From: Firmicutes bacterium HGW-Firmicutes-7
Lineage (GTDB): Bacteria > Bacillota > Clostridia > Lachnospirales > Vallitaleaceae
Reading direction: 5' to 3'
NCBI GenBank assembly: GCA_002841375.1
Contig: PGZO01000015.1
Location: 1-64,000, forward strand
Length of the DNA stretch: 64,000 nucleotides
Shown here: positions 9,766 through 54,376 of the stretch, piece by piece
Position numbering within the stretch: position 1 is the stretch's first letter
Layout of the letters: each line of letters opens with the position of its first letter
Notes under the pieces: generated by a model
Told to the model about the DNA's origin: nothing
Seen by the model: only the letters and a program-made list of their open reading frames with translations
Databases searched by the model: none
Translations under genes and position numbers: made by a program

Positions 9766-10410
9766 ATGCCAGAAAGATATGAATTTCAAAGAGAGCTAGA
9801 TGTACTGCATAAAGATTTGACAAAGATGGGTGCAGTGATTGAAAAAACCATGGACGACATGATTGAGGCATTAATTACACAAAATACACAATTAGCGCAA
9901 GAAATCATTGAAAGAGATGAAGAAATTAATAAAATGGAGCTTCAGGTCGAAAAAGAGTGTATACTATTAATAGCTAGACAACAACCTATTGCTTCTGACC
10001 TTAGAGATATTGCGGCTGTTCTTAAAATCATTACTGACTTGGAGAGAATTGCAGATCATTGTGCAGATATTTCAGAATATACCATTAAGTTATCAAAAGA
10101 GCACTATTTGAAACCAATTATTCATATTCCTGAAATGGTAGAAAAAGTGAAAGCTATGGTTAAAGATGCAATAGACAGTTCAGTGAAAAAAGATTTAGAA
10201 CTAGCCAAATCTATTTGTGAACGAGATGATGAGGTGGACAATTATTTTGATACCATCATTGAAGAACTCATTGATCTCATGAAGGAAGATAGTGAAAATA
10301 TTAGACAATGCAAGGATTTTATGTTTATTGTTAAATATTTAGAAAGAATGGGAGACCATGCTACCAATATTGCAGAATGGGTAATATATACAGTAACAGG
10401 TAGTCACTAG
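9766..10410 (+). CDS. phoU: Phosphate signalling regulator PhoU
   Basis: Cytoplasmic three-helix-repeat protein of about 214 aa that links the Pst transporter to the PhoR kinase and represses the Pho regulon when phosphate is ample. Two PhoU repeats are visible, with the metal-binding pattern DLERIADHCADIS in the first and YLERMGDHATNIAEW in the second. ATG 9766 is set by GGAGGA 6 bases upstream; the ATG at 9751 lies inside that site. It lies 40 bases after pstB and 32 before phoB. Confidence 0.95.
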   Translation: MPERYEFQRELDVLHKDLTKMGAVIEKTMDDMIEALITQNTQLAQEIIERDEEINKMELQVEKECILLIARQQPIASDLRDIAAVLKIITDLERIADHCADISEYTIKLSKEHYLKPIIHIPEMVEKVKAMVKDAIDSSVKKDLELAKSICERDDEVDNYFDTIIEELIDLMKEDSENIRQCKDFMFIVKYLERMGDHATNIAEWVIYTVTGSH

Positions 10411-10442
10411 TTAGGGTCTAACGGTAAAGGAGTGTAGAAGCG

Positions 10443-11165
10443 ATGAAAAAAGTAATCCTTACAGTGGATGATGAAGAAAACATTTTAGAGTTACTTAAAT
10501 ATAACTTAGAAAAAAATGGCTTTGACGTCCTTCAAGCTAAAACTGGTGAAGATGGACTTAGTATTTTAGAAGAAAAACATGTAGATATGATTTTACTAGA
10601 TTTAATGCTGCCTGGTATAGATGGCTTAGAGGTTCTTAAGACCATTAGAATAAACAAAAAATTTGCGAACATACCCATTATTATGCTGACTGCAAAGAGC
10701 GAGGAAATTGATAAGGTTCTTGGACTTGAAATGGGCGCAGATGATTATTTAGCGAAACCCTTTGGTGTACATGAATTAATAGCAAGAATAAAAGCAGTCT
10801 CAAGAAGGACAGAAGAATTAGCTAAAAGAAATGCTGTAAATAATGAACATTCAGAAGATATAATAAATTGTGCGGGTTTAGTTATCAATAAGTCTACACA
10901 TGTAGTAACAGTTAGAGAAAAGGTTATTGAATTGGCTTTAAAGGAATTTGAGTTGCTTTTTTTGCTTGCAAAAAATCAAGGAAGGGTTTTCGATCGAGAA
11001 TACCTTCTTGAAAGAATTTGGGGCTATGATTATTCTGGCGAAACTAGAACGGTTGATGTTCACATAAGAAATATTAGAAAAAAGATAGAGGTTGATGATA
11101 GTAATCCGATCTATATAAAAACAGTTCGTGGTATTGGATATAAGTTCTCTTCAGCAAAGGAGTGA
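10443..11165 (+). CDS. phoB: Phosphate response regulator PhoB/PhoP
   Basis: 240 aa OmpR/PhoB-family transcription factor. The receiver domain (residues 1-120) has the acidic DDEEN pocket, phosphoacceptor Asp in MILLDLMLPG, Thr/Ser in IIMLTAKSEE and Lys in YLAKPF. The C-terminal winged helix (about 145-238) contains ELALKEFELLFLLAKNQGRV and RTVDVHIRNIRKKI. The partner kinase follows directly. The Pho boxes at 8815, 27210 and 30452 are its likely targets (inference from box type and gene content). Confidence 0.93.
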   Translation: MKKVILTVDDEENILELLKYNLEKNGFDVLQAKTGEDGLSILEEKHVDMILLDLMLPGIDGLEVLKTIRINKKFANIPIIMLTAKSEEIDKVLGLEMGADDYLAKPFGVHELIARIKAVSRRTEELAKRNAVNNEHSEDIINCAGLVINKSTHVVTVREKVIELALKEFELLFLLAKNQGRVFDREYLLERIWGYDYSGETRTVDVHIRNIRKKIEVDDSNPIYIKTVRGIGYKFSSAKE

Positions 11166-42048: not shown

Positions 42049-42071
42049 GGCGGGGAAAAAGGCAGACAGAA

Positions 42072-42110
42072 CAAGGGGGACAGGCACTTTTTAAGTGCCT
42101 GTCCCCCTTG
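42072..42110 (+). repeat. REP-like palindrome A
   Basis: Perfect 18-base arms containing GGGGGACAGGCAC, loop of three T. Outer GGCAG / CTGCC extends the stem. Compact relative of the elements at 43512 and 54119. Confidence 0.85.
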
Positions 42111-42200
42111 CCTTCTCTGCCTTTTTATTTCCTGCACCTTGATTTTTTGAGGCTAATATTATATACTTAAGTTTCATAATTAAAAAATGGAGGAATAAAG

Positions 42201-42773: not shown

Positions 42774-43509
42774 TAGGTCCAAAAGAGGCATTAGACTTTT
42801 TTCTATTATAGGTATTTTAGTACTGGTTTTTTCTACCATCGTATTTGCAAAAGAATATCCAGCTCCTACAAATGAATTTTATGTTAATGACTTTGCAAAT
42901 GTATTAGATGATCGTACTGAAAGCTATATTTATTCGATGAACAATGCCTTAGAAAAAGCTACTGACGCACAAGTTGTTGTGGTGACTGTAAATGATATTC
43001 AAGAACAAGCGTTAGAGGAGTTTTCTCTTGGTTTGTTTCGAGAATGGGGAATAGGAGATGCTCAGAAAAATAATGGTGTCTTAATACTTCTTGATGTTGC
43101 AGGAAAAATGTCTCGTATAGAGGTTGGATACGGTCTTGAAGGCGCTTTGCCCGATGGAAAAACTGGTAGGATTCAAGATAAATTTATGGTTCCTTACTTT
43201 AAGGAAGGGGATTATAACACTGGAATAACAGAAGGCTTTAATGCAATTATAAATGAGGTTTACTTAGAATATGGCTATGATGCACCCATTGAAGGAGATT
43301 ATAGTACAGACTCAAAACCAACCAATCCCTTATTAATGGTTATTGGTATTATATTTGCTATTGGTCTAATAATTTTAGATTTTAGATTCACAGGCGGAAT
43401 GTTTACTTTTATGATACTAAGAGGTATAGGCCGTGGCGGCGGTGGCGGTTCAGGTCGCTCAGGCGGTGGCGGAAGCGGCGGTGGCGGTGGAAGCTCTAGA
43501 GGATGGTAA
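42766..43509 (+). CDS. TPM-domain (YgcG-like) membrane protein
   Basis: About 247 aa. Signal peptide (LFSIIGILVLVFSTIVFA), TPM domain (residues 25-165) with FANVLDDRTESYIYSMNNAL, WGIGDAQKNNGVLILLD and RIEVGYGLEGALPDGKTGRI, one membrane segment (PLLMVIGIIFAIGLIILDF), then a Gly/Ser-rich tail with Arg. This layout fits YgcG/Psb32-like proteins. TTG 42766 follows AGGTGA; GTG 42757 is inside that signal. Translationally coupled to lemA. Confidence 0.9.
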   Translation: MSNRSKRGIRLFSIIGILVLVFSTIVFAKEYPAPTNEFYVNDFANVLDDRTESYIYSMNNALEKATDAQVVVVTVNDIQEQALEEFSLGLFREWGIGDAQKNNGVLILLDVAGKMSRIEVGYGLEGALPDGKTGRIQDKFMVPYFKEGDYNTGITEGFNAIINEVYLEYGYDAPIEGDYSTDSKPTNPLLMVIGIIFAIGLIILDFRFTGGMFTFMILRGIGRGGGGGSGRSGGGGSGGGGGSSRGW

Positions 43510-43511
43510 GA

Positions 43512-43638
43512 CAAAGGGGACAGGCACTTTTGGCTCATGGAGCTTAAAGTACTAGTTCCCTTTGTATTCCCTTTATCTTTGCTTTTTGATTGTGTTTTGC
43601 TTTTGTGGCTATTAAGTCAAAAGTACCTGTCCCCTTTG
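43512..43638 (+). repeat. REP-like element B (about 127 bp)
   Basis: Ends are inverted: CAAAGGGGACAGGCACTTTT at the left and its near-complement at the right. The interior is unique except for homology to element C at 54119, including CTCATGGAG. No coding content. Confidence 0.85.
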
Positions 43639-43752
43639 ACTGTGGACTGCCCTTTGACTGCTTGACACAATCAACACAATAAGTCCTATTGACTATTTAT
43701 TTTTTGTGTGATAGTATGAAAACTAATATGACACTATATTCAGGAGAATAAC

Positions 43753-44472
43753 ATGCTAAACAGAAAGGATCCAATACCATTATATGTCCAATTATATCGT
43801 AGATTAAAACAAGATATTATTAAAGGTACTTATTCCAATGGTAGTATGATTCCATCTGAGGCTCAACTAATTAAACAATATAATGTTACGCGTACAACTA
43901 TTAGAAAAGCTGTATCAACGTTAGCACAAGAAGGTTTGGTAGAAACAATTCATGGTAAAGGTACCGTAGTATCTTTAAGAGAGTTGGATTACAATGTATG
44001 GAATTTTGGTAGTTTTACAGATTATTTAAGAATGTATAATGAAACACCTAAATCATTGGTGATTGAAAATAAAGTAGTAGTGCATGATGAAAAAAAATAT
44101 TTCAAGCTTTTAAGAGGCAGAGGCATAAATAAAAATGGCGAAATAGTTTATTTAACTTTAGATAATTCGCTTATTCCATATGATTTGTTTCCGGGTATAG
44201 AAAAATATGATTTTTCAGTAGAATCCTTTTACAACATAATGAAGACGGTATATAATATTAAGCCTGATCATGTAAATATTAGAATTTTTCCTGTTATTGC
44301 AAGTGGACTTGCTCAAGAATTATTTAAAATTAATGAAACGACGCCTATACTCAGAGTTGAAGGAACACTCTATTCAAAAGATAGTATTGAGCTTGAAAAG
44401 ATTAGTTTAACCTATAGTCCTAATATTAACTTTAACATTGTAAGTAGTGTTGGTGATAGGACGCAATATTAA
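43753..44472 (+). CDS. GntR/HutC-type transcriptional regulator
   Basis: 239 aa. N-terminal winged helix (residues 8-75) with PLYVQLYRRLKQDIIKGTY, MIPSEAQLIKQYNVTRTTIR and GLVETIHGKGTVV. C-terminal UTRA effector domain with LLRGRGINKNGEIVYLTLD and ILRVEGTLYSKDSIELEKI. UTRA regulators usually sense a phosphosugar. It leads the polyol cluster and is the likely regulator of the operators at 44516 and 46909 (inference). CAGGAGA sets the start. Confidence 0.9.
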   Translation: MLNRKDPIPLYVQLYRRLKQDIIKGTYSNGSMIPSEAQLIKQYNVTRTTIRKAVSTLAQEGLVETIHGKGTVVSLRELDYNVWNFGSFTDYLRMYNETPKSLVIENKVVVHDEKKYFKLLRGRGINKNGEIVYLTLDNSLIPYDLFPGIEKYDFSVESFYNIMKTVYNIKPDHVNIRIFPVIASGLAQELFKINETTPILRVEGTLYSKDSIELEKISLTYSPNINFNIVSSVGDRTQY

Positions 44473-44515: not shown

Positions 44516-44537
44516 CTTATACGTACGACCGTACGAC
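44516..44537 (+). promoter_or_regulatory. Operator candidate 1, dha operon
   Basis: CTTATACG-N6-CGTACGAC, preceded by AA; shares 20 of 22 bases with the site at 46909. About 85 bases before the DhaM-like gene. Also contains a direct GTACGACC repeat. Confidence 0.6.
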
Positions 44538-44621: not shown

Positions 44622-45020
44622 ATGGTTGGAATTGTCATCGTATCTCACAGCAAACAAGCGGCAGAGGGTATTAGAGAATTATCCATGCAAATGGCAGGTC
44701 ATGAGCAAAAGATTATAGCTGTAGGGGGCACAGACGATGGTCGCATAGGTACCGATGCACTTAAAATATATGAAGCTATCCAAAATGCTGATTGTGGAAA
44801 GGGTGTTGTCGTTTTAGTAGATCTAGGAAGTGCAGTATTAAGTACTACAGCAGCAATGGATTTATTAACTGAAGAGGGTATCATCATTGATGTTAGACTT
44901 GCTGATGCACCAGTTTTAGAAGGAAGTGTAAGTGCTGCAGTTCAAGCATTTATAGGTGGAACTATAGAGGAGGTTGTAGCAGCGGCAGAACTCGCTAGGC
45001 AAATATCAAAACAGCTTTAA
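44622..45020 (+). CDS. dhaM: PTS-dependent dihydroxyacetone kinase phosphotransferase, DhaM-like
   Basis: About 132 aa, EIIA-mannose-type fold. The phosphorylated His is in GIVIVSHSKQAAEG (residue 9). DGRIGTDALKIYEAI and VVVLVDLGSAVLSTTAAMDLL match DhaM. Only the EIIA-like domain is present; HPr and EI domains found in enterobacterial DhaM are absent, as usual in Firmicutes. It passes phosphate from HPr to the ADP bound to DhaL. ATG 44622 follows GGAGG; the frame is open further upstream. First gene of dhaM-dhaK-dhaL. Confidence 0.88.
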   Translation: MVGIVIVSHSKQAAEGIRELSMQMAGHEQKIIAVGGTDDGRIGTDALKIYEAIQNADCGKGVVVLVDLGSAVLSTTAAMDLLTEEGIIIDVRLADAPVLEGSVSAAVQAFIGGTIEEVVAAAELARQISKQL

Positions 45021-45151: not shown

Positions 45152-46147
45152 ATGAGAAGATTAATCAATGATCCGTACGAAATTGTTGAAGAAATGTTAG
45201 ACGGTTACTGTAGAGCATTTGGTGACCATGTGAAATTACTTGAACATGATGGTAGAGTTGTTGTAAGTAAAAATGCACCAAAGAAAGACAAAGTAGGCGT
45301 TATTGTTGGTGGTGGGTCTGGACATGAGCCTTTATTCTTAGGGTATGTTGGAGAGGGATTTGCAGATGCAGCGGTTATTGGCAATATTAATACATCTCCA
45401 TCACCTGAACCATGTTATAACTCAGTAAAAGCAGTTGATGCAGGTAAAGGTTGTATTTATCTATATGGAAATTATGCAGGGGATGTAATGAACTTTGATA
45501 TTGGTGCAGAAATGGCTGCAGAAGAGGGTATCAGAGTAGAAACAGTTTTAATTACTGATGATGTAATCTCATCTAAAAACGTTGCAGACAGAAGAGGTAT
45601 TGCTGGAGATTTCTTTGTATTTAAAGCAGCAGCAGCAAAAGCAGAAGAAGGTTCAGATCTTGACGGAGTAGTAGCTGCAGCTAAGAAAGCGAATGAAAAC
45701 TGCGCAACTATGGGCGTTGCTTTAGGCGCTGCAGAACATCCAACAACAGGCAGTGAAATGTTTGAAATGGAATCTGGAGATATGGAAATCGGTATGGGTA
45801 TTCACGGCGAGCCGGGCGTAAGAAGAGGGAAAACTGAACCAGCTGATGCAGTAGTTACAGAAATTATGGATGTATTAGTGCCTGAACTTAAGTTAGCAAA
45901 AGGCGATGAGGTGTGTGTACTTGTTAATAGCCTTGGTGCCACACCAATGATGGATCTCTTTGTTGCTTTTAGAAAAGTATCTATGATTCTTGAAGAAAAA
46001 GGGGTAACTGTCCATAAAACATTTATCGGTACATATGCTTCTACAATGAATATGCCAGGAACTTCAGTTACATTATTAAAAGTTGATGATGAACTTAAGA
46101 AATTAATTGATTATCCTACAAACGCACCTTACTTTATTCAAAAATAA
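45152..46147 (+). CDS. dhaK: Dihydroxyacetone kinase subunit DhaK (or ketotetrose homologue)
   Basis: 331 aa. Binds dihydroxyacetone covalently through a His, here in MGIHGEPGVRR (near residue 218), with a second substrate His in GGGSGHEPLFLGYVG (near 56). Other family segments are GNYAGDVMNFD and RRGIAGDFFVFKAAA. Catalytic residues appear complete. Some DhaK homologues phosphorylate erythrulose, so substrate should not be assumed from the name given the isomerases in this cluster. GGAGG sets the start. Confidence 0.9.
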   Translation: MRRLINDPYEIVEEMLDGYCRAFGDHVKLLEHDGRVVVSKNAPKKDKVGVIVGGGSGHEPLFLGYVGEGFADAAVIGNINTSPSPEPCYNSVKAVDAGKGCIYLYGNYAGDVMNFDIGAEMAAEEGIRVETVLITDDVISSKNVADRRGIAGDFFVFKAAAAKAEEGSDLDGVVAAAKKANENCATMGVALGAAEHPTTGSEMFEMESGDMEIGMGIHGEPGVRRGKTEPADAVVTEIMDVLVPELKLAKGDEVCVLVNSLGATPMMDLFVAFRKVSMILEEKGVTVHKTFIGTYASTMNMPGTSVTLLKVDDELKKLIDYPTNAPYFIQK

Positions 46148-46194: not shown

Positions 46195-46845
46195 ATGTAT
46201 AAAAATTATATATTAGATAAAGATTATTTTATTCAAGTCGTAAAAGATTTGGCAGTAATGGCTGAAGTGGAGAGGGATTATCTTACTAAATTGGACTCAT
46301 TAATTGGAGACAGTGATCACGGTATAAATCTTTCAATAGGCTTCAGAGAAGTTACTAAAAAATTACCTGAATGGGAAAATGAAAATATTACAGCCTTCTT
46401 TAAAAAAGTAGGTATGACACTTCTAGGTAAAGTTGGAGGAGCTGCTGGTCCTTTATACGGTGGTTTTTTTATGAAATTAGGAGAACCTGCAAATAACAAA
46501 GAGGAAGTTGATTTTGGAGAATTTTGTAACATGATTAAGAATGGAGTGGAGGCAGTTGAGAGTCGCGGAAAAGCTATTATTGCTGATAAAACCATGGTGG
46601 ATACTTTTAGACCGGCACTAGATGCACTTATGGCAGCAGTAGAAGCAGGTCAACAACCACTAGATGCATTTGACAAATGTGTTAAGGCTGGAGAAATTGG
46701 AAGAGATTCTACAATACCACTTATTGCAAAAAAAGGAAGAGCGCTCCGCCTAGGAGAAAGAGCAATTGGTCATATGGATCCGGGTTCTGCATCTTCGTAT
46801 ATGATTCTGAACATATTTTACGAAAATATGAAGAAAAGATTCTGA
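46195..46845 (+). CDS. dhaL: Dihydroxyacetone kinase subunit DhaL
   Basis: 216 aa, all-helical barrel holding ADP-Mg. The metal-binding Asp trio is in LIGDSDHGINLSIGF (usual GDGDHG, so one Gly is Ser). LGKVGGAAGPLYGGFF and DKTMVDTFRPALDAL are the conserved nucleotide-binding parts, and GRALRLGERAIGHMDPGSAS closes the domain. It receives phosphate from DhaM and passes it to substrate on DhaK. 47 bases after dhaK. Confidence 0.92.
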   Translation: MYKNYILDKDYFIQVVKDLAVMAEVERDYLTKLDSLIGDSDHGINLSIGFREVTKKLPEWENENITAFFKKVGMTLLGKVGGAAGPLYGGFFMKLGEPANNKEEVDFGEFCNMIKNGVEAVESRGKAIIADKTMVDTFRPALDALMAAVEAGQQPLDAFDKCVKAGEIGRDSTIPLIAKKGRALRLGERAIGHMDPGSASSYMILNIFYENMKKRF

Positions 46846-46849
46846 AATA

Positions 46850-46879
46850 GAAATCACTGCCCGAACGGGTAGTGATTTC
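46850..46879 (+). terminator. Hairpin after dhaL
   Basis: Fourteen-base arms GAAATCACTGCCCG / CGGGTAGTGATTTC with one G-T pair and a tiny loop. No T-tract follows; probable mRNA end or weak terminator. Confidence 0.45.
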
Positions 46880-46908: not shown

Positions 46909-46930
46909 CTTATACGTACAACCGTACAAG
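46909..46930 (+). promoter_or_regulatory. Operator candidate 2, kinase/redox operon
   Basis: CTTATACG-N6-CGTACAAG, arms 7 of 8 complementary; near-identical to the site at 44516. Lies 255 bases before the kinase. The remainder of 46931-47184 has a TATAAT at 47011 without a clear -35, and no gene. Confidence 0.65.
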
Positions 46931-47184: not shown

Positions 47185-48675
47185 ATGGGAAACTATGTAT
47201 TAGTAATGGATCAGGGTACAACAAGTTCAAGGGCTGCTATTTTTAATGAAAGAGGAGAAAGAATAGCAATGGATAACAAGGAGTTCAACCAAATATATCC
47301 AAAGCCAGGTTGGTTTGAACACGATGGTACAGCTATTTGGAATGTAACACTTGAAGTATCTAAAAATGCGCTTAAAAAAGCAAATTTAACAGGAAAAGAT
47401 ATTTCAGCAATAGGAATTACAAATCAACGTGAAACTACCACTATGTGGGATAAGGAAACAGGTACACCTGTTTACAATTCTATTGTTTGGGCATGTAGAA
47501 GAGGTAGCGAAATCTGTTCAGATTTAATTGACAAGGGATATGATAATACCTTTAATAAAAAAACTGGTTTAGTCATAGACGCAACCTATTCAGCTTCAAA
47601 AATTAAATGGATATTTGACAATGTTCCTGGAACAAAAGAAAAAGCCGCTGAAGGTAAATTATTATTTGGAACAATTGATACCTGGCTGCTTTGGAATTTG
47701 ACAAAAGGTAAAGTACATGCGACAGATCCATCGAATGCTTCACGAACAATGCTTTACAATGTTTATGATTTAAAGTGGGATGAAGAATTGCTTGATATTC
47801 TTAATATTCCTAAAAATATATTTCCAGAAGTCAAGGATTCAATTGGCATCTTTGGATATGCTGACAAAGAATGGTTTGGTCATGAAATTCCAATTTCAGG
47901 TATCGCAGGGGATCAACAAGCTGCTCTTTTTGGTCAAGCATGTAATGAACCTGGAGATGCTAAAAATACATATGGAACGAGCTGTGTACCACTCATGTTT
48001 ATTGGCGATAAACCAGTATATAGTGAAAAAGGGCTTTTAACCTTAGCTTGGGGTATAAATGGAAAGGCTCAATATTCAACAGGCGCAAGTATTCTTACTG
48101 GTGGAGCAGCAGTTCAGTGGCTAAGAGATGGACTTAAAATTATCAAAACTACACCTGAATCTGAGGCGCTTGCAAGAAGTGTTGAAGATACAGCTGGTGT
48201 ATATTTTGTTCCAGCTTTTCAAGGTCTAGCAGCTCCCCATTGGGATATGTATGCAAGAGGTATGATTATCGGAATCACTGCGGGTGTTACGGGTGCTCAT
48301 ATTGCCAGAGCTACGCTTGATTCTATGGCTTATCAAACGAGAGACCTTCTTGATCAAATGGAAAAAGAATCAGGAACAAAGCTTAAATCACTTAAGGTAG
48401 ATGGTGGTGCAGCAAATAATGATTATTTAATGCAATTCCAAGCAGATATATTAAATGTTCCAGTAATTAGACCTGCTGACGTGGAAACAACATCATTGGG
48501 CACTGCATATCTTGCTGGGCTTGGCGTAGGTATTTGGAAAGATCAAAGTGAATTAAAAGAACTTTGGAAAGCAGAAAAAACTTTTTATCCTACCATGGAT
48601 GAAGAGAAAAGAGAAGAATTATATGCTGGATGGAAGAGAGCGGTCGAATTCTCTAAAGGCTGGATAGAAAGATAG
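47185..48675 (+). CDS. FGGY-family polyol kinase, glycerol kinase-like
   Basis: 496 aa, overall closest to GlpK: DQGTTSSRAAIFNERGE, GITNQRETTTMWDKETG, VWACRR, SGIAGDQQAALFGQAC and VDGGAANNDYLMQFQ. Catalytic Asp (GDQ) and the Arg-Glu pair are kept. However, by alignment to E. coli GlpK the glycerol-pocket residue Tyr135 (IDPYFS) is Thr here (IDATYS) and Phe270 (GTGCF) is Val (GTSCV). Both changes shrink side chains, which would fit a longer polyol such as a tetritol. Could still be glycerol kinase. GGAGG sets the start. Confidence 0.88.
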   Translation: MGNYVLVMDQGTTSSRAAIFNERGERIAMDNKEFNQIYPKPGWFEHDGTAIWNVTLEVSKNALKKANLTGKDISAIGITNQRETTTMWDKETGTPVYNSIVWACRRGSEICSDLIDKGYDNTFNKKTGLVIDATYSASKIKWIFDNVPGTKEKAAEGKLLFGTIDTWLLWNLTKGKVHATDPSNASRTMLYNVYDLKWDEELLDILNIPKNIFPEVKDSIGIFGYADKEWFGHEIPISGIAGDQQAALFGQACNEPGDAKNTYGTSCVPLMFIGDKPVYSEKGLLTLAWGINGKAQYSTGASILTGGAAVQWLRDGLKIIKTTPESEALARSVEDTAGVYFVPAFQGLAAPHWDMYARGMIIGITAGVTGAHIARATLDSMAYQTRDLLDQMEKESGTKLKSLKVDGGAANNDYLMQFQADILNVPVIRPADVETTSLGTAYLAGLGVGIWKDQSELKELWKAEKTFYPTMDEEKREELYAGWKRAVEFSKGWIER

Positions 48676-48793: not shown

Positions 48794-50263
48794 ATGGGAA
48801 AAATGCAAGAATTTGATGTTATAGTTATTGGCGGTGGTATCGTTGGTACGGCAATAGCAAGAGAATTATCTAGATTTAAGTTGAGAACGGCGCTACTTGA
48901 AGCCAATGTTGATATCGGAGCTGCTTCTACTAAAGGGAATGGCGGGGTTACACATTCTGGTTATGATCCTAAACAAGGAACATTAAAATCTAAAATAAAT
49001 GTTAAAGGCACTTTGATGATTCCAAAGCTTTCTAAAGAGCTTGGATTTAAATTCATTAATTCAGGTACAATGACGCTTGGCTTTGAAGACAGTGATTTGT
49101 CTGTTTTGCAAAAATTATATAAAAATGGTTTAGCAAATGGAGTACCTGGTATTAAATTAATAGGAAGAGATGAAATATTAAAAATTGATAAAAAAGCTAA
49201 CCCAAAAGCAACAATGGCGTTACATGCTCCGACAGCAGGCGTTGTTGATCCATTTGAGTTTGCAATTGCGCTTGCTGAGAATGCGAGTGAAAACGGTGTT
49301 GAATTCTTTAGAAGCCAAAAGGTAATAGGTATTGAAAAAGAGAAAAATCATTTTGTAGTTAAAACACAAAATAATTCTTATAAAACGAACTACATAGTAA
49401 ATGCAGCAGGTGTTTATGGAAGTGAAGTGGCAAATATGGTAGGTATTTATGATTATGAGGTTAAACCAAGATATGGAGAAATTTTAGTGATTGATAAGGC
49501 TATTGGTTTTCAATTAAGCAGCGTTTTCTTTCCAGTCCCAGGTAATCATACGAAGGGTGTTGCAGTGATACCTACACCAGATGGAAATATTATTGTTGGA
49601 TCTACAGCAAGAATGACGGAGGATAAGGAAGATGTGTCCGTTACTAGGGAAGGTATATCAGAGCTATTAAAAGGTGCTAAGCTGTTGGTACCTGATATTG
49701 ATGAAAGATATCTTATTAGGGAATTTGCAGGATTACGTCCTGTTGCAATAAATAATAATGACGATTTTGTGATAGCAGCTTCAAAAGAAGTAAAGGGTTT
49801 TATTAATGCGATAGGTATCCAATCCCCTGGAGTGGGTGCAGCACCCGCAATTGCAGAATATGTAATGGATATTTTATCTAATGAAGGACTTGAATTGAAA
49901 GAAAAAGAAGATTTTAATCCATACAGAACAGCGATCGTTGATTTTAGTGAAGCGAATGATCAAGAGAAATCAAAGCTGATAAAAGAGAATCTAATGTATG
50001 GCAATGTAATTTGTAGATGTGAATGTGTGACTGAGGCAGAAATAGTGCAGGCAATTCATAGACCAGTTGGGGCTACAACGGTGGATGGTGTTAAGCGGAG
50101 AGTTAGAGCTGGTATGGGACGTTGTCAAGGTGGATTTTGCCAACCTAAGGTAGTATCGATTCTTGCTAGAGAATTAAGAATACCGCTTGAAGCAGTGTTG
50201 TTAGAGAATAAAAATTCAAACATTGTTATTGGAAAGTTAAAGCATCAGGAGGTGAAGGGATAA
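48794..50263 (+). CDS. FAD-dependent polyol-phosphate dehydrogenase, GlpA-like, with BFD [2Fe-2S] domain
   Basis: 489 aa. The N-terminal Rossmann motif VIVIGGGIVGTAIARELSRF starts a DAO-type oxidoreductase domain (to about residue 380, with EFAGLRPVAI near 315). The C-terminal Fer2_BFD-like domain has four Cys in CRCECV and CQGGFCQ. Such proteins are commonly named glycerol-3-phosphate dehydrogenase/oxidase in Clostridia and oxidise the phosphate ester made by the preceding kinase. ATG 48803 is an alternative start. The stop overlaps the next ATG (TAATG). Confidence 0.88.
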   Translation: MGKMQEFDVIVIGGGIVGTAIARELSRFKLRTALLEANVDIGAASTKGNGGVTHSGYDPKQGTLKSKINVKGTLMIPKLSKELGFKFINSGTMTLGFEDSDLSVLQKLYKNGLANGVPGIKLIGRDEILKIDKKANPKATMALHAPTAGVVDPFEFAIALAENASENGVEFFRSQKVIGIEKEKNHFVVKTQNNSYKTNYIVNAAGVYGSEVANMVGIYDYEVKPRYGEILVIDKAIGFQLSSVFFPVPGNHTKGVAVIPTPDGNIIVGSTARMTEDKEDVSVTREGISELLKGAKLLVPDIDERYLIREFAGLRPVAINNNDDFVIAASKEVKGFINAIGIQSPGVGAAPAIAEYVMDILSNEGLELKEKEDFNPYRTAIVDFSEANDQEKSKLIKENLMYGNVICRCECVTEAEIVQAIHRPVGATTVDGVKRRVRAGMGRCQGGFCQPKVVSILARELRIPLEAVLLENKNSNIVIGKLKHQEVKG

Positions 50264-51513
50264 TGGAATTCAATTATGATGTAGTGGTTGTTGGAGGTGG
50301 TCCTGCAGGTTTAGGTGCGGCAGCGAAAGCAAAGGAAAGTGGATTGAAGGTTGCCATTTTAGAAAGAAACTTTGAACTAGGAGGTATATTAAATCAGTGC
50401 ATTCATAGTGGCTTTGGATTAGGTTACTTTGGAGAAGATTTAACGGGTCCAGAATATTCGGAAAGATTTATTGATCTTATCAATGAACAAGATATTGAAA
50501 TCTTATTAAACACAATGGTTATAGAAATAACATCGGATAGAGAAATAACTGCGGTAAATAAAAATGGTTTATTAAAAATTAAAGCGGGTGCAATTATATT
50601 AGCTATGGGTTGTCGTGAACGAACAAGAGGTGCAATAAAGATACCAGGTTCAAGGCCATCAGGTGTTTTTACAGCAGGGCAGGCCCAACGCTATATGAAT
50701 TTAGAAAACCTCAAGCCAGGTAAAAAAGTTGTTATACTTGGATCTGGAGACATTGGACTTATTATGGCAAGAAGAATGACGCTTGAGGGTATAAAGGTTC
50801 TTGGCGTTTATGAACTTATGCCATATGCCAATGGCCTTCAAAGAAATATCAAACAATGTTTAGATGATTTTAAGATTCCTCTTCATCTCTCAACTACAGT
50901 TATAGATATTATTGGTAAGAATAGGCTTGAAGCAGTAATAGTAGCTCAGGTAGATGAGAAGGGAAATCCTATTGAAGGAACTGAAGAAAAGATAGAATGC
51001 GATACGCTTCTTTTATCCACTGGTTTAATACCTGAAAATGAACTTTCTGTTAAAACGGGTATCATACTTAATAAATTAACGAATGGTCCGCTTGTAAATG
51101 CAAATCTTGAGACAAATATTAGAGGAATATTTGCTTGTGGTAATGCACTTCATGTGCATGATCTTGTAGATTATGTTACAAAAGAAGCTGAACTTGCTGG
51201 ACAAAAAGCAGCGGATTTTGTTAGAGGAAAAACATCATTATCTGAAAATATTGAAGTAACTCCAGGTGAAAATGTGAGATATACAGTGCCTAATTATATA
51301 CCTACTCATATTGATGGAGCAATCAAGCTCTATTTTAGGGTAACAAAACCAATTGAATCAGGCAGAATTGTTGTAAAAGCCAATGGAAAAACAATTTTTA
51401 CTGGAAAAGAAGATGCATTTAAACCTAGTGAAATGATGATCTTTTATTTAACACCTAAAGTAGTAGCAGAAAATCTTTCTGATTTAACAGTTGCTATAAA
51501 GGAGGAAAAATAA
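50263..51513 (+). CDS. FAD/NAD(P)-dependent oxidoreductase partner
   Basis: 416 aa. FAD motif VVVGGGPAGLGAAAKAKES at the N-terminus, GCRERTRGAIKIPGSRPSG, a second dinucleotide motif VVILGSGDIGLIMARRM (near 160) and a closing FAD motif GIFACGNALHVHDLVDYVT. A CIHSGFGLGYF segment is conserved in this group. It probably transfers electrons from the GlpA-like subunit to NAD(P)+ or another carrier. Translationally coupled on both sides. This three-gene set (GlpA-like, this, DUF1667) recurs in Firmicutes. Confidence 0.88.
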   Translation: MEFNYDVVVVGGGPAGLGAAAKAKESGLKVAILERNFELGGILNQCIHSGFGLGYFGEDLTGPEYSERFIDLINEQDIEILLNTMVIEITSDREITAVNKNGLLKIKAGAIILAMGCRERTRGAIKIPGSRPSGVFTAGQAQRYMNLENLKPGKKVVILGSGDIGLIMARRMTLEGIKVLGVYELMPYANGLQRNIKQCLDDFKIPLHLSTTVIDIIGKNRLEAVIVAQVDEKGNPIEGTEEKIECDTLLLSTGLIPENELSVKTGIILNKLTNGPLVNANLETNIRGIFACGNALHVHDLVDYVTKEAELAGQKAADFVRGKTSLSENIEVTPGENVRYTVPNYIPTHIDGAIKLYFRVTKPIESGRIVVKANGKTIFTGKEDAFKPSEMMIFYLTPKVVAENLSDLTVAIKEEK

Positions 51514-51882
51514 ATGAATAGTGAAATATTAGTTTGCATCATTTGTCCAAAAGCATGTATTTTGAATATTGAAATGGAAAATGAAAAAATAATCAGTATA
51601 TTAGGAAATAAGTGCAAAAGAGGGGTAGACTACGCAGAAAAAGAGTTAACCAATCCTGAACGAGCGCTTTCTAGTACTGTGCTCATTAAGGGAGGGGTGC
51701 TTCCACTTTTACCAGTTCGTTCAAGTAAAGCGCTTCCAAAGGATAGTCTAATAAAGGTGATGGAAGTTATTGATAAAACAGAAGTAGTAGCGCCAGTTAA
51801 AATTGGGGATATCATTGTAAAAAATGTATCAAACCTTGGTGTGGATATCATTGCTTCTAGGAGTATGAGAAAGGTAATATAA
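51514..51882 (+). CDS. DUF1667 protein, Cys-rich redox partner
   Basis: 122 aa. Four Cys in the N-terminal half: CIICPKAC and NKCKRGVDYA, suitable for an iron-sulfur cluster or metal. DUF1667 is known to accompany GlpA/GlpB-like flavoproteins. The rest (VLPLLPVRSSKALPKD, VVAPVKIGDIIVKNV) is a small beta-rich domain. Starts immediately after the upstream stop, with AGGAGG in the previous gene's tail. Likely third subunit of the anaerobic polyol-phosphate oxidising complex. Confidence 0.88.
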   Translation: MNSEILVCIICPKACILNIEMENEKIISILGNKCKRGVDYAEKELTNPERALSSTVLIKGGVLPLLPVRSSKALPKDSLIKVMEVIDKTEVVAPVKIGDIIVKNVSNLGVDIIASRSMRKVI

Positions 51883-51922: not shown

Positions 51923-52846
51923 ATGGCATTAGTTAATTTGCAAGAAATATTAAAAGATGCAAGGGAAAAGAAATATGCGGTTGGAGCATTTGATGTAAGC
52001 AATTATGAGATGATTAGAGCTGTAATTGAGGTTGCAGAGGAAGAAAAATCACCAGTTATTTTAATGGGATTAAAATTAGATTTAGAAGGAATAGGGATTG
52101 AGTACCTTATGTCAATGATGAAGTTAGCTGCTGAAGGAGCTTCAGTACCTGTATGTATTCATCTAGATCATGCCACAGAATATGATTTGATTAAAAGAGC
52201 AATTGACCATGGCTTTACTTCAGTAATGTATGATGGCTCAATACTTTCATTAGAAGAAAATATTATTAATACAAAGAGAGTTTGCGAGCTTGCACATAAA
52301 TATGGTGTTAATGTTGAAGCGGAACTTGGCCATGTAGGTGATGGTATAACTGGAAATTCGGAAACAGCTTCAGATGAAATAGTGAAAGAAAAGCTTACAT
52401 TACCAGAAGAAATGGCAAGGTTTATTAATGAAACAGAAGTAGATGCATTAGCTGTATCCATTGGAACAGCACATGGTGTGTATGTATCAGAACCTAAGCT
52501 TGATTTTAAAAGACTTGAAATTCTAAATAAAATTTCTACGGTTCCACTTGTACTGCATGGTGGTTCAGGAACACCTGACAACGATATTAGAAAATCAATT
52601 GAGCTTGGGATTTCAAAAATCAATATTTATTCAGAAGTTCTAAATGCTTATTACTCGGAATTAAAAAGAGCGTTAAATGCTTCAACCAATATGTCTCTTT
52701 GGCCAAGTGTAGTAAATAAAGAGCCAGTGGAAAATATGAAAAAAGTGATTAGATCTAAAATAAGATTATTTGGGTCAAACAATAGGGCAATGAATAAAGA
52801 TCTTAAGGATTCACATCAAAAGGATATAAAAAAGGGAGATTTTTAA
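51923..52846 (+). CDS. Class II ketose-bisphosphate aldolase
   Basis: 307 aa, zinc-dependent aldolase of the FbaA/GatY/KbaY group. Metal and active-site parts are VCIHLDHATEYDLIKRAI, NVEAELGHVGD, AVSIGTAHGVY and VLHGGSGTPD, with the phosphate site INIYSEVLNAYYSELK. The C-terminal 25 residues (RLFGSNNRAMNKDLKD onward) are a basic extension not usual in the family. Substrate may be fructose-, tagatose- or sedoheptulose-bisphosphate. If the cluster yields erythrose-4-phosphate, condensation with DHAP to sedoheptulose-1,7-bisphosphate would be fitting (inference). AGGAGG start. Confidence 0.88.
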   Translation: MALVNLQEILKDAREKKYAVGAFDVSNYEMIRAVIEVAEEEKSPVILMGLKLDLEGIGIEYLMSMMKLAAEGASVPVCIHLDHATEYDLIKRAIDHGFTSVMYDGSILSLEENIINTKRVCELAHKYGVNVEAELGHVGDGITGNSETASDEIVKEKLTLPEEMARFINETEVDALAVSIGTAHGVYVSEPKLDFKRLEILNKISTVPLVLHGGSGTPDNDIRKSIELGISKINIYSEVLNAYYSELKRALNASTNMSLWPSVVNKEPVENMKKVIRSKIRLFGSNNRAMNKDLKDSHQKDIKKGDF

Positions 52847-52847
52847 A

Positions 52848-53615
52848 ATGAGAAAGAAAATTGTATGCTTTAGCTGGAAAATGCATATCAATACGCGGCA
52901 AGAGGTTGATACTTTAGCTACAGGTATAAGAGATTTAACCAAAGCTATGACAGAGCTTGAAATATTTTTGCTGCCTACGTTTCCATTAATTCCTCATTTA
53001 TCACAAATTTTAGAAGGCAGTCATATCGGTTGGGGTGCTCAAAATATGGCATTTGCTGATTACGGTGCTTATACAGGTGAAGTTCCACCTATAACACTAA
53101 TAGATTTAGGGTGCAAGTATGTTGAAATTGGGCATGCAGAACGTAGAATGTATTTTAATGAAAGTGATCAGGATGTGAATAAGAAGGTTAAGCTTTGCTT
53201 AAAGTTTGGAATGACACCATTAGCTTGTGTGGGTGAAACAGAAAGCGAAAAAGAGGAAGGAAATGGGTATGTTAAAATTAGAACCCAAGTTCTATGGGCA
53301 CTAGAAGGATTAAGTGAAGAAGAAATAAAAAAAGTAATACTTGTTTATGAGCCTGTATGGGCGATAGGAAAGCAAGAAGGCGCAAGTGCAGAATATGTAG
53401 AAGAGATCCATAGCTTCATCCGTGGCGTTGTTGCTCAGGAACATGGCAGTGAAGCTGCTAAAGCTGTTCGAATTATATATGGAGGCTCAGTAAAACTTGA
53501 AAGTGCACAAAAGCTTATGAAAAAAGAAAACATTGATGGTCTGTTTGCAGGTAGATTTGCTTTATGGCCAGATAAGTTTGCTGCAATAGCCGCTACAGCA
53601 TTAAGGAAGGAATAA
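52848..53615 (+). CDS. TIM-family isomerase, EryH/TpiA2-like paralogue
   Basis: 255 aa TIM barrel. The catalytic Lys (SWKMH), His (GHAERR) and Glu (VYEPVWAIG) are all kept, so it should be an active isomerase. Residues normally fixed in triosephosphate isomerase differ: Asn of NWK is Ser, Ser of GHSERR is Ala, the loop 6 GTG is replaced by GKQEG, and the phosphate loop VGGASL is AGRFAL. The SWKM and DGLFxGR patterns recall TpiA2/EryH of rhizobia and Brucella, which isomerise an erythrulose phosphate. Starts 2 bases after the aldolase stop. Confidence 0.85.
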   Translation: MRKKIVCFSWKMHINTRQEVDTLATGIRDLTKAMTELEIFLLPTFPLIPHLSQILEGSHIGWGAQNMAFADYGAYTGEVPPITLIDLGCKYVEIGHAERRMYFNESDQDVNKKVKLCLKFGMTPLACVGETESEKEEGNGYVKIRTQVLWALEGLSEEEIKKVILVYEPVWAIGKQEGASAEYVEEIHSFIRGVVAQEHGSEAAKAVRIIYGGSVKLESAQKLMKKENIDGLFAGRFALWPDKFAAIAATALRKE

Positions 53616-53661: not shown

Positions 53662-54114
53662 ATGAAGATCGGAATTGGTAGTGATCAAAATGCCTATGCT
53701 TTAAAAATGATAATTATAAAACATCTTGAAGCAAAAGGTTATGAATGTGTTGATTTTGGAAGTGCTGAAGGAGAGTGCGTATTATATCCCGATGTTGCAC
53801 TAAAAGTATCTGAAGAGGCAGCAAAGGGAAGTTTTGAAAGAGGTATATTGGTTTGTGGCACAGGTATTGGTATGGCAATTGTAGCTAACAAGGTACCAGG
53901 TGTAAGAGCAGCAGTATGCCATGATGTTTATTCCGCTCAACGTGCAAGAAAAAGTAATGATGCTCAGATCATGACCCTTGGAGCAGAAATTGTTGGCCCA
54001 GCCTTAGCGAGAGAATTGGTAGATGCTTGGCTAGATTCAGAGTTTCAGGGTGGTGGTTCCCAACCCAAAGTTGACTTGATTAATGAGATAGATAATAAAT
54101 ATAAAACAAAATAA
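53662..54114 (+). CDS. RpiB/LacA-family sugar-phosphate isomerase, divergent
   Basis: 150 aa. The catalytic Cys is present (LVCGTGIGMAI). Compared with E. coli RpiB, His10 is Gln (GSDQNAY), the ring-opening His99 is Ser (ARKSND), and phosphate-site Arg133/His134/Arg137 are Gly/Ser/Lys. These changes argue against plain ribose-5-phosphate isomerase. Loss of the ring-opening His suits a substrate that cannot cyclise, such as a tetrose phosphate, as in EryI. Last gene of the cluster; a REP-like element follows. Confidence 0.87.
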   Translation: MKIGIGSDQNAYALKMIIIKHLEAKGYECVDFGSAEGECVLYPDVALKVSEEAAKGSFERGILVCGTGIGMAIVANKVPGVRAAVCHDVYSAQRARKSNDAQIMTLGAEIVGPALARELVDAWLDSEFQGGGSQPKVDLINEIDNKYKTK

Positions 54115-54118
54115 AAAA

Positions 54119-54240
54119 AGACAAAGGGGACAGGCACTTTTGACTCATGGAGTTAAATGGACTTGTTCCTTTTGTCTTTTCGTTTTGTTTGTAATTTAAC
54201 TTTGTGATAATTAAGTCAAAAGTACCTGTCCCCTTTGTCT
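54119..54240 (+). repeat. REP-like element C (about 122 bp)
   Basis: Ends AGACAAAGGGGACAGG and CCTGTCCCCTTTGTCT are perfect inverted repeats of 16. It shares its ends and CTCATGGAG core with element B, in the same orientation. Confidence 0.87.
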
Positions 54241-54376
54241 ACCATTTGGCTATGGAATTTATGGAATAATATGGTATAATATTTTTATGACTTTGCTGCA
54301 TACCTTGTATTATATAGTTGTGTATGGGCAAAATAAACATACAGATTTGCATCTTAAATTGAAAAGGAGCTGTAAA

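Follow-up and report, generated by a model that had tools for sequence, protein, structure and literature searches.

The RpiB-family protein encoded at positions 53662–54114 of the window, the 64,000-nucleotide stretch analyzed here, is very probably a DerI-type tetrose-phosphate isomerase and probably acts in a route of L-erythrulose use. Its sequence, a coupled residue signature, its clade, its gene neighbors and a motif shared by two gene units point to such a substrate and suggest a reaction direction, a pathway and a mode of regulation. The C4 substrate put forward by the first-pass annotation is supported by a clade that includes proteins passing the NCBIfam DerI model NF051858, by tetrose-pathway neighbors, by a LerI-like TIM upstream, and by the phosphate site of the Coccidioides immitis RpiB. 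The window isomerase is a further example of an already known kind of enzyme, found in an unusual gene cluster, the features of which are as follows.

43508–43641, unstranded: palindromic repeat on the left of the cluster
43753–44472, plus strand: GntR-UTRA regulator (family scan), probable regulator of both gene units
44516–44534, plus strand: 19-bp motif, first copy, ahead of dhaM (motif search)
44622–45020, plus strand: DhaM-like protein with a PTS EIIA-man domain (family scan), putative phosphoryl donor to DhaKL
45152–46147, plus strand: DhaK, one of two in the genome (homology)
46195–46845, plus strand: DhaL (family scan)
46850–46879, plus strand: hairpin of 13 pairs between dhaL and glpK (−21.6 kcal/mol, z −6.35)
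46909–46927, plus strand: 19-bp motif, second copy (CTTATACGTACRACCGTAC), ahead of glpK; probably serves as an operator
47185–48675, plus strand: GlpK glycerol kinase homolog, above the NCBIfam GlpK cut-off
48794–50263, plus strand: GlpA-like FAD polyol-phosphate dehydrogenase with a BFD-type [2Fe-2S] domain, below the NCBIfam cut-offs
50263–51513, plus strand: FAD/NAD(P) pyridine nucleotide-disulphide oxidoreductase (family scan)
51514–51882, plus strand: DUF1667 protein, perhaps a redox partner of the two preceding genes
51923–52846, plus strand: class II aldolase of the FBA/GatY/YdjI family, reading KINIYSEVL for KINIDTxxR
52848–53615, plus strand: TIM homolog, LerI/EryH-like, predicted to interconvert L-erythrulose 1-phosphate and D-erythrulose 4-phosphate
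53662–54114, plus strand: RpiB-family isomerase, probably of DerI type (signature, tree, alignment with a solved homolog); proposed phosphate site Arg94, Ser98, Ser133 and Lys136, with Cys65 as catalytic base by homology
54117–54242, unstranded: palindromic repeat flanking the cluster on the right; identity with the left repeat about 80%

The Isomerase and Its Proposed Phosphate Site

The reading frame of the isomerase is intact, encodes 150 amino acids with a plausible ribosome-binding site ahead of its ATG, and matches PF02502 with 176 bits in the family scan; a pseudogene is ruled out by the intact frame and by the presence of the core catalytic residues. The fold is settled by a full-length match to the solved structure 3he8 (1e-45), and a single-sequence structure model, which was poor (mean pLDDT 50.9), was not drawn on for any conclusion.

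The window protein was aligned with the RpiB of Escherichia coli K-12 (NC_000913.3, locus L107), with which it has 61 of 148 aligned residues in common. The alignment places Gln9, Ser98, Gly132 and Lys136 of the window isomerase at His10, His99, Arg133 and Arg137 of the E. coli enzyme, while Asp8, Tyr42, Cys65, Gly66 and Thr67 are retained. These are the four exchanges, with the catalytic Cys kept, that the first-pass annotation had listed, and the alignment confirms them; its list nevertheless left out two others that are good markers, Leu95 to Arg94 and His134 to Ser133, and included Arg133 to Gly, which is the weakest and in fact no marker, because Arg133 is present in 10 of the 32 Ser99 proteins compared below. 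As the ring-opening His and the phosphate residues His10, Arg133 and Arg137 are absent, we did not file the protein as an RpiB.

In other RpiBs, the ring is opened by His99 or His102, and the phosphate is bound by His11, Arg137 and Arg141 (PMC4783025, PMC3755991). In the C. immitis RpiB the ring-opening His is replaced by Ser109, and Ser109, Ser145 and Lys148 hold the phosphate, with a possible charge relay to Arg105, according to the available text of its structural description (PMC3212906). These four residues align with positions 99, 134, 137 and 95, that is, with Ser98, Ser133, Lys136 and Arg94 of the window isomerase, so that the two proteins have the same residues at these four positions; the solved enzyme (PDB 3QD5, 3SDW, 3SGW) differs in being fungal and in having Asp17 where the window protein has Gln9. 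Hence the earlier claim that the ring-opening His and the phosphate Arg are lost holds as far as it goes, but the phosphate site appears exchanged rather than merely lost: because Ser at position 99 contacts the phosphate in the C. immitis structure, the change from His to Ser is more than a relaxed need for ring opening.

A profile of 18 Ser99 proteins searched against solved structures ranked 5ifz first (197.3 bits), followed by 3he8 (187.2), 3ph3 (186.6), the C. immitis chains (184.9 and 184.4) and then E. coli RpiB (172.9), and the window isomerase alone found 3he8 first (158.5 bits) and 3qd5 thirteenth (91.5). The RpiBs of Clostridium thermocellum (3HE8) and E. coli have the family and the catalytic Cys, Thr, Asp and Tyr in common with the window isomerase but, unlike it, retain His10, His99, Arg133, His134 and Arg137.

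We propose that the window isomerase converts D-erythrulose 4-phosphate and D-erythrose 4-phosphate into each other through RpiB-type enediol chemistry, Cys65 being the base and Thr67 assisting, both assigned by homology. In this scheme, the clamp that RpiB forms around a C5 phosphate with His10, Arg133, His134 and Arg137 would give way to a shorter-chain clamp made of Ser98, Ser133 and Lys136, with Arg94 behind Ser98. A tetrose 4-phosphate cannot form a furanose, and the ring-opening His would be absent because the substrate has no such ring to open. On the other hand, E. coli RpiB potentially has DerI activity with its His99 in place (PMC10733421, available text), and C4 turnover may therefore not need the loss of this residue.

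A Coupled Signature Marks a Ser99 Clade

We aligned 107 distinct RpiB-family rows from the loci collected. Position 99 is Ser in 32 rows, His in 72 (LacA included) and Glu in one LacB, two rows being cut before the site. All 32 Ser99 rows have Arg95, Ser134 and Cys66, and 30 have Lys137, the two others (L108 from Rhizobium and L112 from Paracoccus) having Asn; position 10 varies among them (Glu 15, Gln 5, Asn 3, Ser 3, Asp 2, Pro 1, Val 1, gap 2). Among His99 rows, His10 is found in 71 of 72, Arg95 in 0 of 72, and His134 and Arg137 each in 70 of the 70 in which the site is present (2 gaps each). Positions 95, 99, 134 and 137 thus part the 32 Ser99 rows from the 72 His99 rows without exception where the site is present, which provides a simple test that matches a solved phosphate site, and the window isomerase carries the full combination of Ser99, Arg95, Ser134 and Lys or Asn137. 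No statement of this four-residue signature for DerI was found in the open literature, a weak sign of absence since most subscription papers lie outside that search.

The residue changes of the window isomerase are not due to chance, because they are common to a clade. In a maximum-likelihood tree of 104 rows, built without the 87-residue Ser99 fragment L067, 31 Ser99 rows lie on one side of a single branch (support 100/99) and the 72 His99 rows on the other, with the caveats of a small number of columns, an unsettled bootstrap and some long branches. The window isomerase falls on the same side as the L108 and L112 proteins, both of which pass NF051858, which makes it a member of the DerI/EryI clade in the wide sense. 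Within this clade, it groups with the L063–L065 proteins and with the protein of a tetritol-like PTS cluster, L123 (tree row L034), with support 100/94. Its nearest relatives, 71–85% identical, come from three Erysipelotrichaceae records and one Firmicutes bin (L063–L065, L067), and the isomerase of the same-class genome G357 (L034, L123) is 68% identical. In the metagenome record L067, the isomerase gene (9956–10445) is split over two reading frames, by either a sequencing error or a real frameshift.

The source genome has four other RpiB-family copies, all on other contigs, including His99 copies at C55:155695 and C35:203472. At one locus (L118/L160, C35:193000–212900), two isomerase genes adjoin each other (about 10446 and 10946), one of the His99 and one of the Ser99 class, with split transketolase homologs and sugar ABC genes as neighbors. 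Another locus (L117/L159, on C55) carries the gene of a third Ser99 isomerase, in which positions 10 and 103 are both Asn, next to an FGGY kinase, split transketolase homologs and an FBA-like gene; this locus possibly encodes another tetrose or pentose route.

Family Models and Known Isomerases

Nine Ser99 proteins were scanned with NCBIfam models. The rhizobial DerI equivalog NF051858, with a cut-off of 240 bits, is passed by two of them, Rhizobium L108 (255.7) and Paracoccus L112 (249.4); the window isomerase scores 159. In L108 (Rhizobium sp. N741 plasmid) the isomerase follows oiaX, a four-carbon acid sugar kinase gene and a TIM gene, and in L112 (Paracoccus sp. TOH), which we take to be an ery-like cluster, it accompanies TIM, G3P dehydrogenase, FGGY kinase, FBPase and fba genes. 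The rpiB equivalog TIGR01120 (cut-off 138.65) is passed by four of the nine, the window isomerase barely (140.1) and L063 (151.5), L109 (150.7) and L123 (146.1) with it, as well as by both His99 proteins scanned, L004 (172.8) and L005 (193.6). Since the rpiB equivalog accepts four of nine Ser99 proteins, one of which (L109) carries the label rpiB in its record, the label ribose-5-phosphate isomerase can conceal tetrose-phosphate pathways.

Some evidence favors reading the window protein as an ordinary ribose-5-phosphate isomerase B, which we consider very unlikely: it passes TIGR01120 and also PRK05571 (176.6, cut-off 135), and its best solved relative is the C. thermocellum RpiB. Yet it lacks His99, His134 and Arg137, residues invariant in the His99 class wherever the site is present; a His102 mutant of the Leishmania donovani RpiB had no ribose-5-phosphate activity (PMC4783025, available text); and the genome has separate His99 copies.

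Galactose-6-phosphate isomerase LacAB also belongs to PF02502, and of its two subunits LacB likewise lacks His99 while LacA lacks the Cys (PMC3755991, available text, and our alignment), which could suggest that the window protein is half of a similar heteromer whose partner supplies the His and Arg. This is hardly credible, for the cluster has no second RpiB-family gene, the other four copies lying on other contigs. Furthermore, His10 is gone as well, although its counterpart in LacB, His9, is needed, the H9A variant being inactive (PMC3755991, available text). The LacA and LacB equivalog cut-offs are far off (at best 95.6 against 164 and 113.9 against 234, respectively), and LacAB, an obligate heteromer, is without the Ser99/Arg95/Ser134 set, the Ser99 clade having phosphate residues of its own.

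DerI-type isomerization thus appears the best reading. The Brucella EryI and the mycobacterial DerI are D-erythrulose-4-phosphate isomerases, and Huang 2015 reportedly deals with DerI and LerI. PMC5992420, which cites Barbier 2014, describes EryI as the final isomerase in erythritol breakdown, and PMC10190533 states that the catalytic functions of the five ery enzymes had been demonstrated. With the DerI and EryI proteins, the window isomerase has in common the clade, the Ser99, Arg95 and Ser134 of the two members that pass NF051858, and an adjacent TIM-type partner. It differs from them by its score below the rhizobial cut-off, by having Lys at position 137 instead of the Asn of the Rhizobium and Paracoccus members, and by its association with PTS-type DhaMKL, GlpK/GlpA and an aldolase. 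The C4 reading is therefore well supported but not new: the authors of the C. immitis structure suspected shorter-chain substrates for this His-to-Ser RpiB as early as 2011 (PMC3212906, available text).

Gene Neighborhoods of Ser99 and His99 Loci

We counted neighbors within 8.5 kb of the isomerase gene at 31 Ser99 loci, window included, and 52 His99 loci. The count omits the short-flank loci L001–L062, 38 of these places having been refetched with wider flanks and used, and L124, a 3.9-kb Ser99 contig that carries the same gene as L035 and has neither DhaK nor TIM in view. A DhaK or TIM homolog is present at 23 of the 31 Ser99 loci (23 of 32 with L124) versus a single His99 locus out of 52 (L088, an ordinary TIM), a difference for which Fisher's test gives p = 9e-13, the loci being related and their flanks uneven in length. 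Several His99 loci have short flanks, so that their zero counts are partly so by default; at the 20 refetched His99 loci L137–L156, almost all of which have 8-kb flanks on both sides, neither gene was found (0/20). AlsE/Rpe-type epimerases show the opposite distribution (0/31 vs 8/52), and transketolase is found near 6/31 Ser99 and 3/52 His99 genes.

In L063–L065 and L067, genes for DhaK, DhaL, TIM and the isomerase stand in a row, and DhaK is 89–91% identical to that of the window. In G357 (L034/L123), tkt, tal and the isomerase gene face genes for a GpsA-like dehydrogenase, a LerI-like TIM, an EryC-like protein (28% identical to the Paracoccus one), a FucA/AraD-like protein and a galactitol-type PTS, along with a GlpA-like gene. 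At L121 and L122, a Ser99 isomerase and a TIM lie beside an OiaX homolog (25–26% identity), which resembles the Rhizobium oiaX cluster L108.

Eight of the 31 Ser99 loci have neither DhaK nor TIM, and four of these (L066, L127, L128, L135) also have no transketolase or transaldolase. Along with the breadth of the clade and the Ser99 copy that adjoins a His99 copy, split transketolase and sugar ABC genes in the source genome (L118), these four loci favor the idea of a clade isomerase for some other phosphate ester, such as a ketose phosphate of the C5 or C6 size with its phosphate seated differently. We regard this as quite unlikely for the window isomerase, given its well-supported grouping with L123 and with the L063–L065 proteins, whose genes stand beside DhaK, DhaL and TIM.

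The Cluster, Its Probable Regulation, and a Proposed Route

From GlpA onward, genes overlap by one base or are spaced by 0 to 46 bp, whereas dhaL and glpK are separated by a 339-bp gap that holds the strong hairpin 46850–46879. A 39-bp repeat, 85% identical between its copies, lies upstream of both dhaM and glpK. A search of the genome (4,076,706 bases, 89 contigs) that allowed two mismatches found the 19-bp core of the repeat, CTTATACGTACRACCGTAC, at these two sites and nowhere else. From this shared motif, the dha unit and the glpK-to-isomerase unit would form one regulon, probably under the GntR protein.

Palindromic repeats flank the cluster from the GntR gene to the isomerase gene, and the genome contains 10 exact copies of a 15-base core of theirs, of which 4 lie here. 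Movement of the cluster as a cassette is a possibility. A hairpin with a related core, AAGGGGGACAGGCACTT, and arms that are 88% complementary is found at 42056–42126, upstream of a gene that is LemA-like by inspection.

Elsewhere, the genome encodes a TIM with an ordinary loop (C48), two further GlpK with GlpA homologs nearby, and a second DhaK (C3) which, by inspection, is accompanied by DhaL, DhaM, EI and a NifA-type regulator. With His99 RpiBs, an ordinary-looking TIM and a further PTS-type dha operon present in the genome, the genes of the window cluster appear to be a dedicated, parallel set rather than a housekeeping one. No tetritol dehydrogenase or transporter was recognized among the family-scanned proteins of the cluster.

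The TIM homolog directly upstream of the isomerase reads DGLFAGRF in loop 8 where ordinary TIMs read DGxLVGGASL, and SWK for NWK. The loop 8 motif F-x-G-R is present in 14 of 14 TIMs found by Ser99 loci, versus GGASL in the three ordinary TIMs of the same alignment (3/3); Ser for Asn before Trp-Lys is not general, the L109 and L122 TIMs having Asn. We take the changed phosphate loop to be a feature of LerI, and together with the pairing with a DerI-type gene it suggests a partner of LerI/EryH type. The closest solved relative is not LerI, however: Thermotoga maritima TIM 1b9b scores 193.4 bits and LerI 11ef 145, ordinary TIMs scoring higher, and 11ef is not among the 33 matches at E ≤ 1e-50 with profile A1.

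In the route that we propose, DhaMKL would phosphorylate L-erythrulose to L-erythrulose 1-phosphate, the LerI-like TIM would convert it to D-erythrulose 4-phosphate, and the isomerase would probably act as the last step of L-erythrulose use, giving erythrose 4-phosphate. As GlpK is above the glycerol kinase cut-off, C3 use is probably also part of the role of the cluster.

The Class II Aldolase

Where seven FBA-type proteins read NIDT-(D/E)-x-R, the window aldolase reads KINIYSEVL, with Tyr236 and Leu240 in place of the Asp and Arg of six FBA-like proteins (L165, L184–L186, L192, L193) and of the Paracoccus FBA. The D and R of the NIDT motif presumably serve FBP specificity and the distal phosphate. 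Both are also absent from E. coli YdjI (KINIHTELC), annotated as an octuluronate-1-phosphate aldolase. The D/R pair offers no clean rule, because it varies in E. coli FbaA (NIDTDTQ, Asp/Gln), in KbaY and GatY (NVATELK, Ala/Lys) and in the own-genome copies L166 (Ala/Lys), L167 (Gly/Arg) and L117 (Ser/Lys); the genome contains five other matches to the window aldolase, of which one (L165) reads NIDTDLR. The motif hints weakly at a ketose-1-phosphate rather than FBP as substrate. Sedoheptulose-bisphosphate aldolase activity (DHAP + E4P) is another possible role. It would explain the place of the gene, and the Paracoccus locus L112 combines FBA, FBPase and transketolase; against it stand Tyr236 and Leu240, and such a bypass is not required because the genome has transaldolase-family genes (4 matches).

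Across 391 genomes of the class, 12 relatives of the aldolase were found at E ≤ 1e-75, own genome included, the other 11 being 47–53% identical. Six of them, at 51–53%, have NIYSDVL in common, and each has a SorC/EryD-like regulator gene beside it; no TIM or isomerase gene lies near these six within the 6 to 13 kb examined. At L187–L189, the NIYSDVL aldolase gene is followed by that of a zinc-type dehydrogenase (scanned for families in L189 alone, where it passes no cut-off), with a divergent SorC/DeoR-type regulator.

Among the loci examined, the order aldolase–TIM–isomerase is found in the window only. Elsewhere, aldolase-type genes near a TIM and a Ser99 isomerase are of the FBA kind in L112 and FucA/AraD-like, a superfamily that also includes decarboxylases and epimerases, in L121, L122 and L123. 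Counting all kinds together, DHAP-type aldolase homologs are present at 8 of 31 Ser99 loci versus 0 of 39 His99 loci (39 of the 52 used).

In the synthetic EuMP cycle, which is called new-to-nature, DHAP and formaldehyde are joined into erythrulose 1-phosphate, on which LerI and then DerI act; FbaA-, GatY- and KbaY-type aldolases should give the L isomer; and in E. coli the cycle was built with FucA or RhaD plus EryC, FbaA and YihT having failed in vivo (PMC10733421, available text). The distinctive enzymes of this cycle are an aldolase, LerI and DerI, and in the window a class II aldolase gene is directly followed by LerI-like and DerI-like genes; in contrast to the FucA or RhaD with EryC of the synthetic cycle, the candidate aldolase here is of the FBA family. 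It is conceivable, if doubtful, that the regulon is a natural counterpart of EuMP, in which the aldolase would join DHAP and formaldehyde as L-erythrulose 1-phosphate, or cleave it, the two isomerases would link this compound to erythrose 4-phosphate, and GlpK/GlpA and DhaMKL would supply or receive DHAP. An EryC epimerase would not be needed, because the L isomer is the expected product of FBA-family aldolases, and no EryC gene was found in 40001–64000 of the window; the related cluster L123 has its FucA/AraD-like aldolase together with an EryC-like gene. The authors of the synthetic cycle call for study of the co-occurrence of aldolases and isomerases (PMC10733421, available text), and the cluster places a candidate erythrulose-1-phosphate aldolase beside LerI- and DerI-like genes, the kind of co-occurrence they wanted studied.
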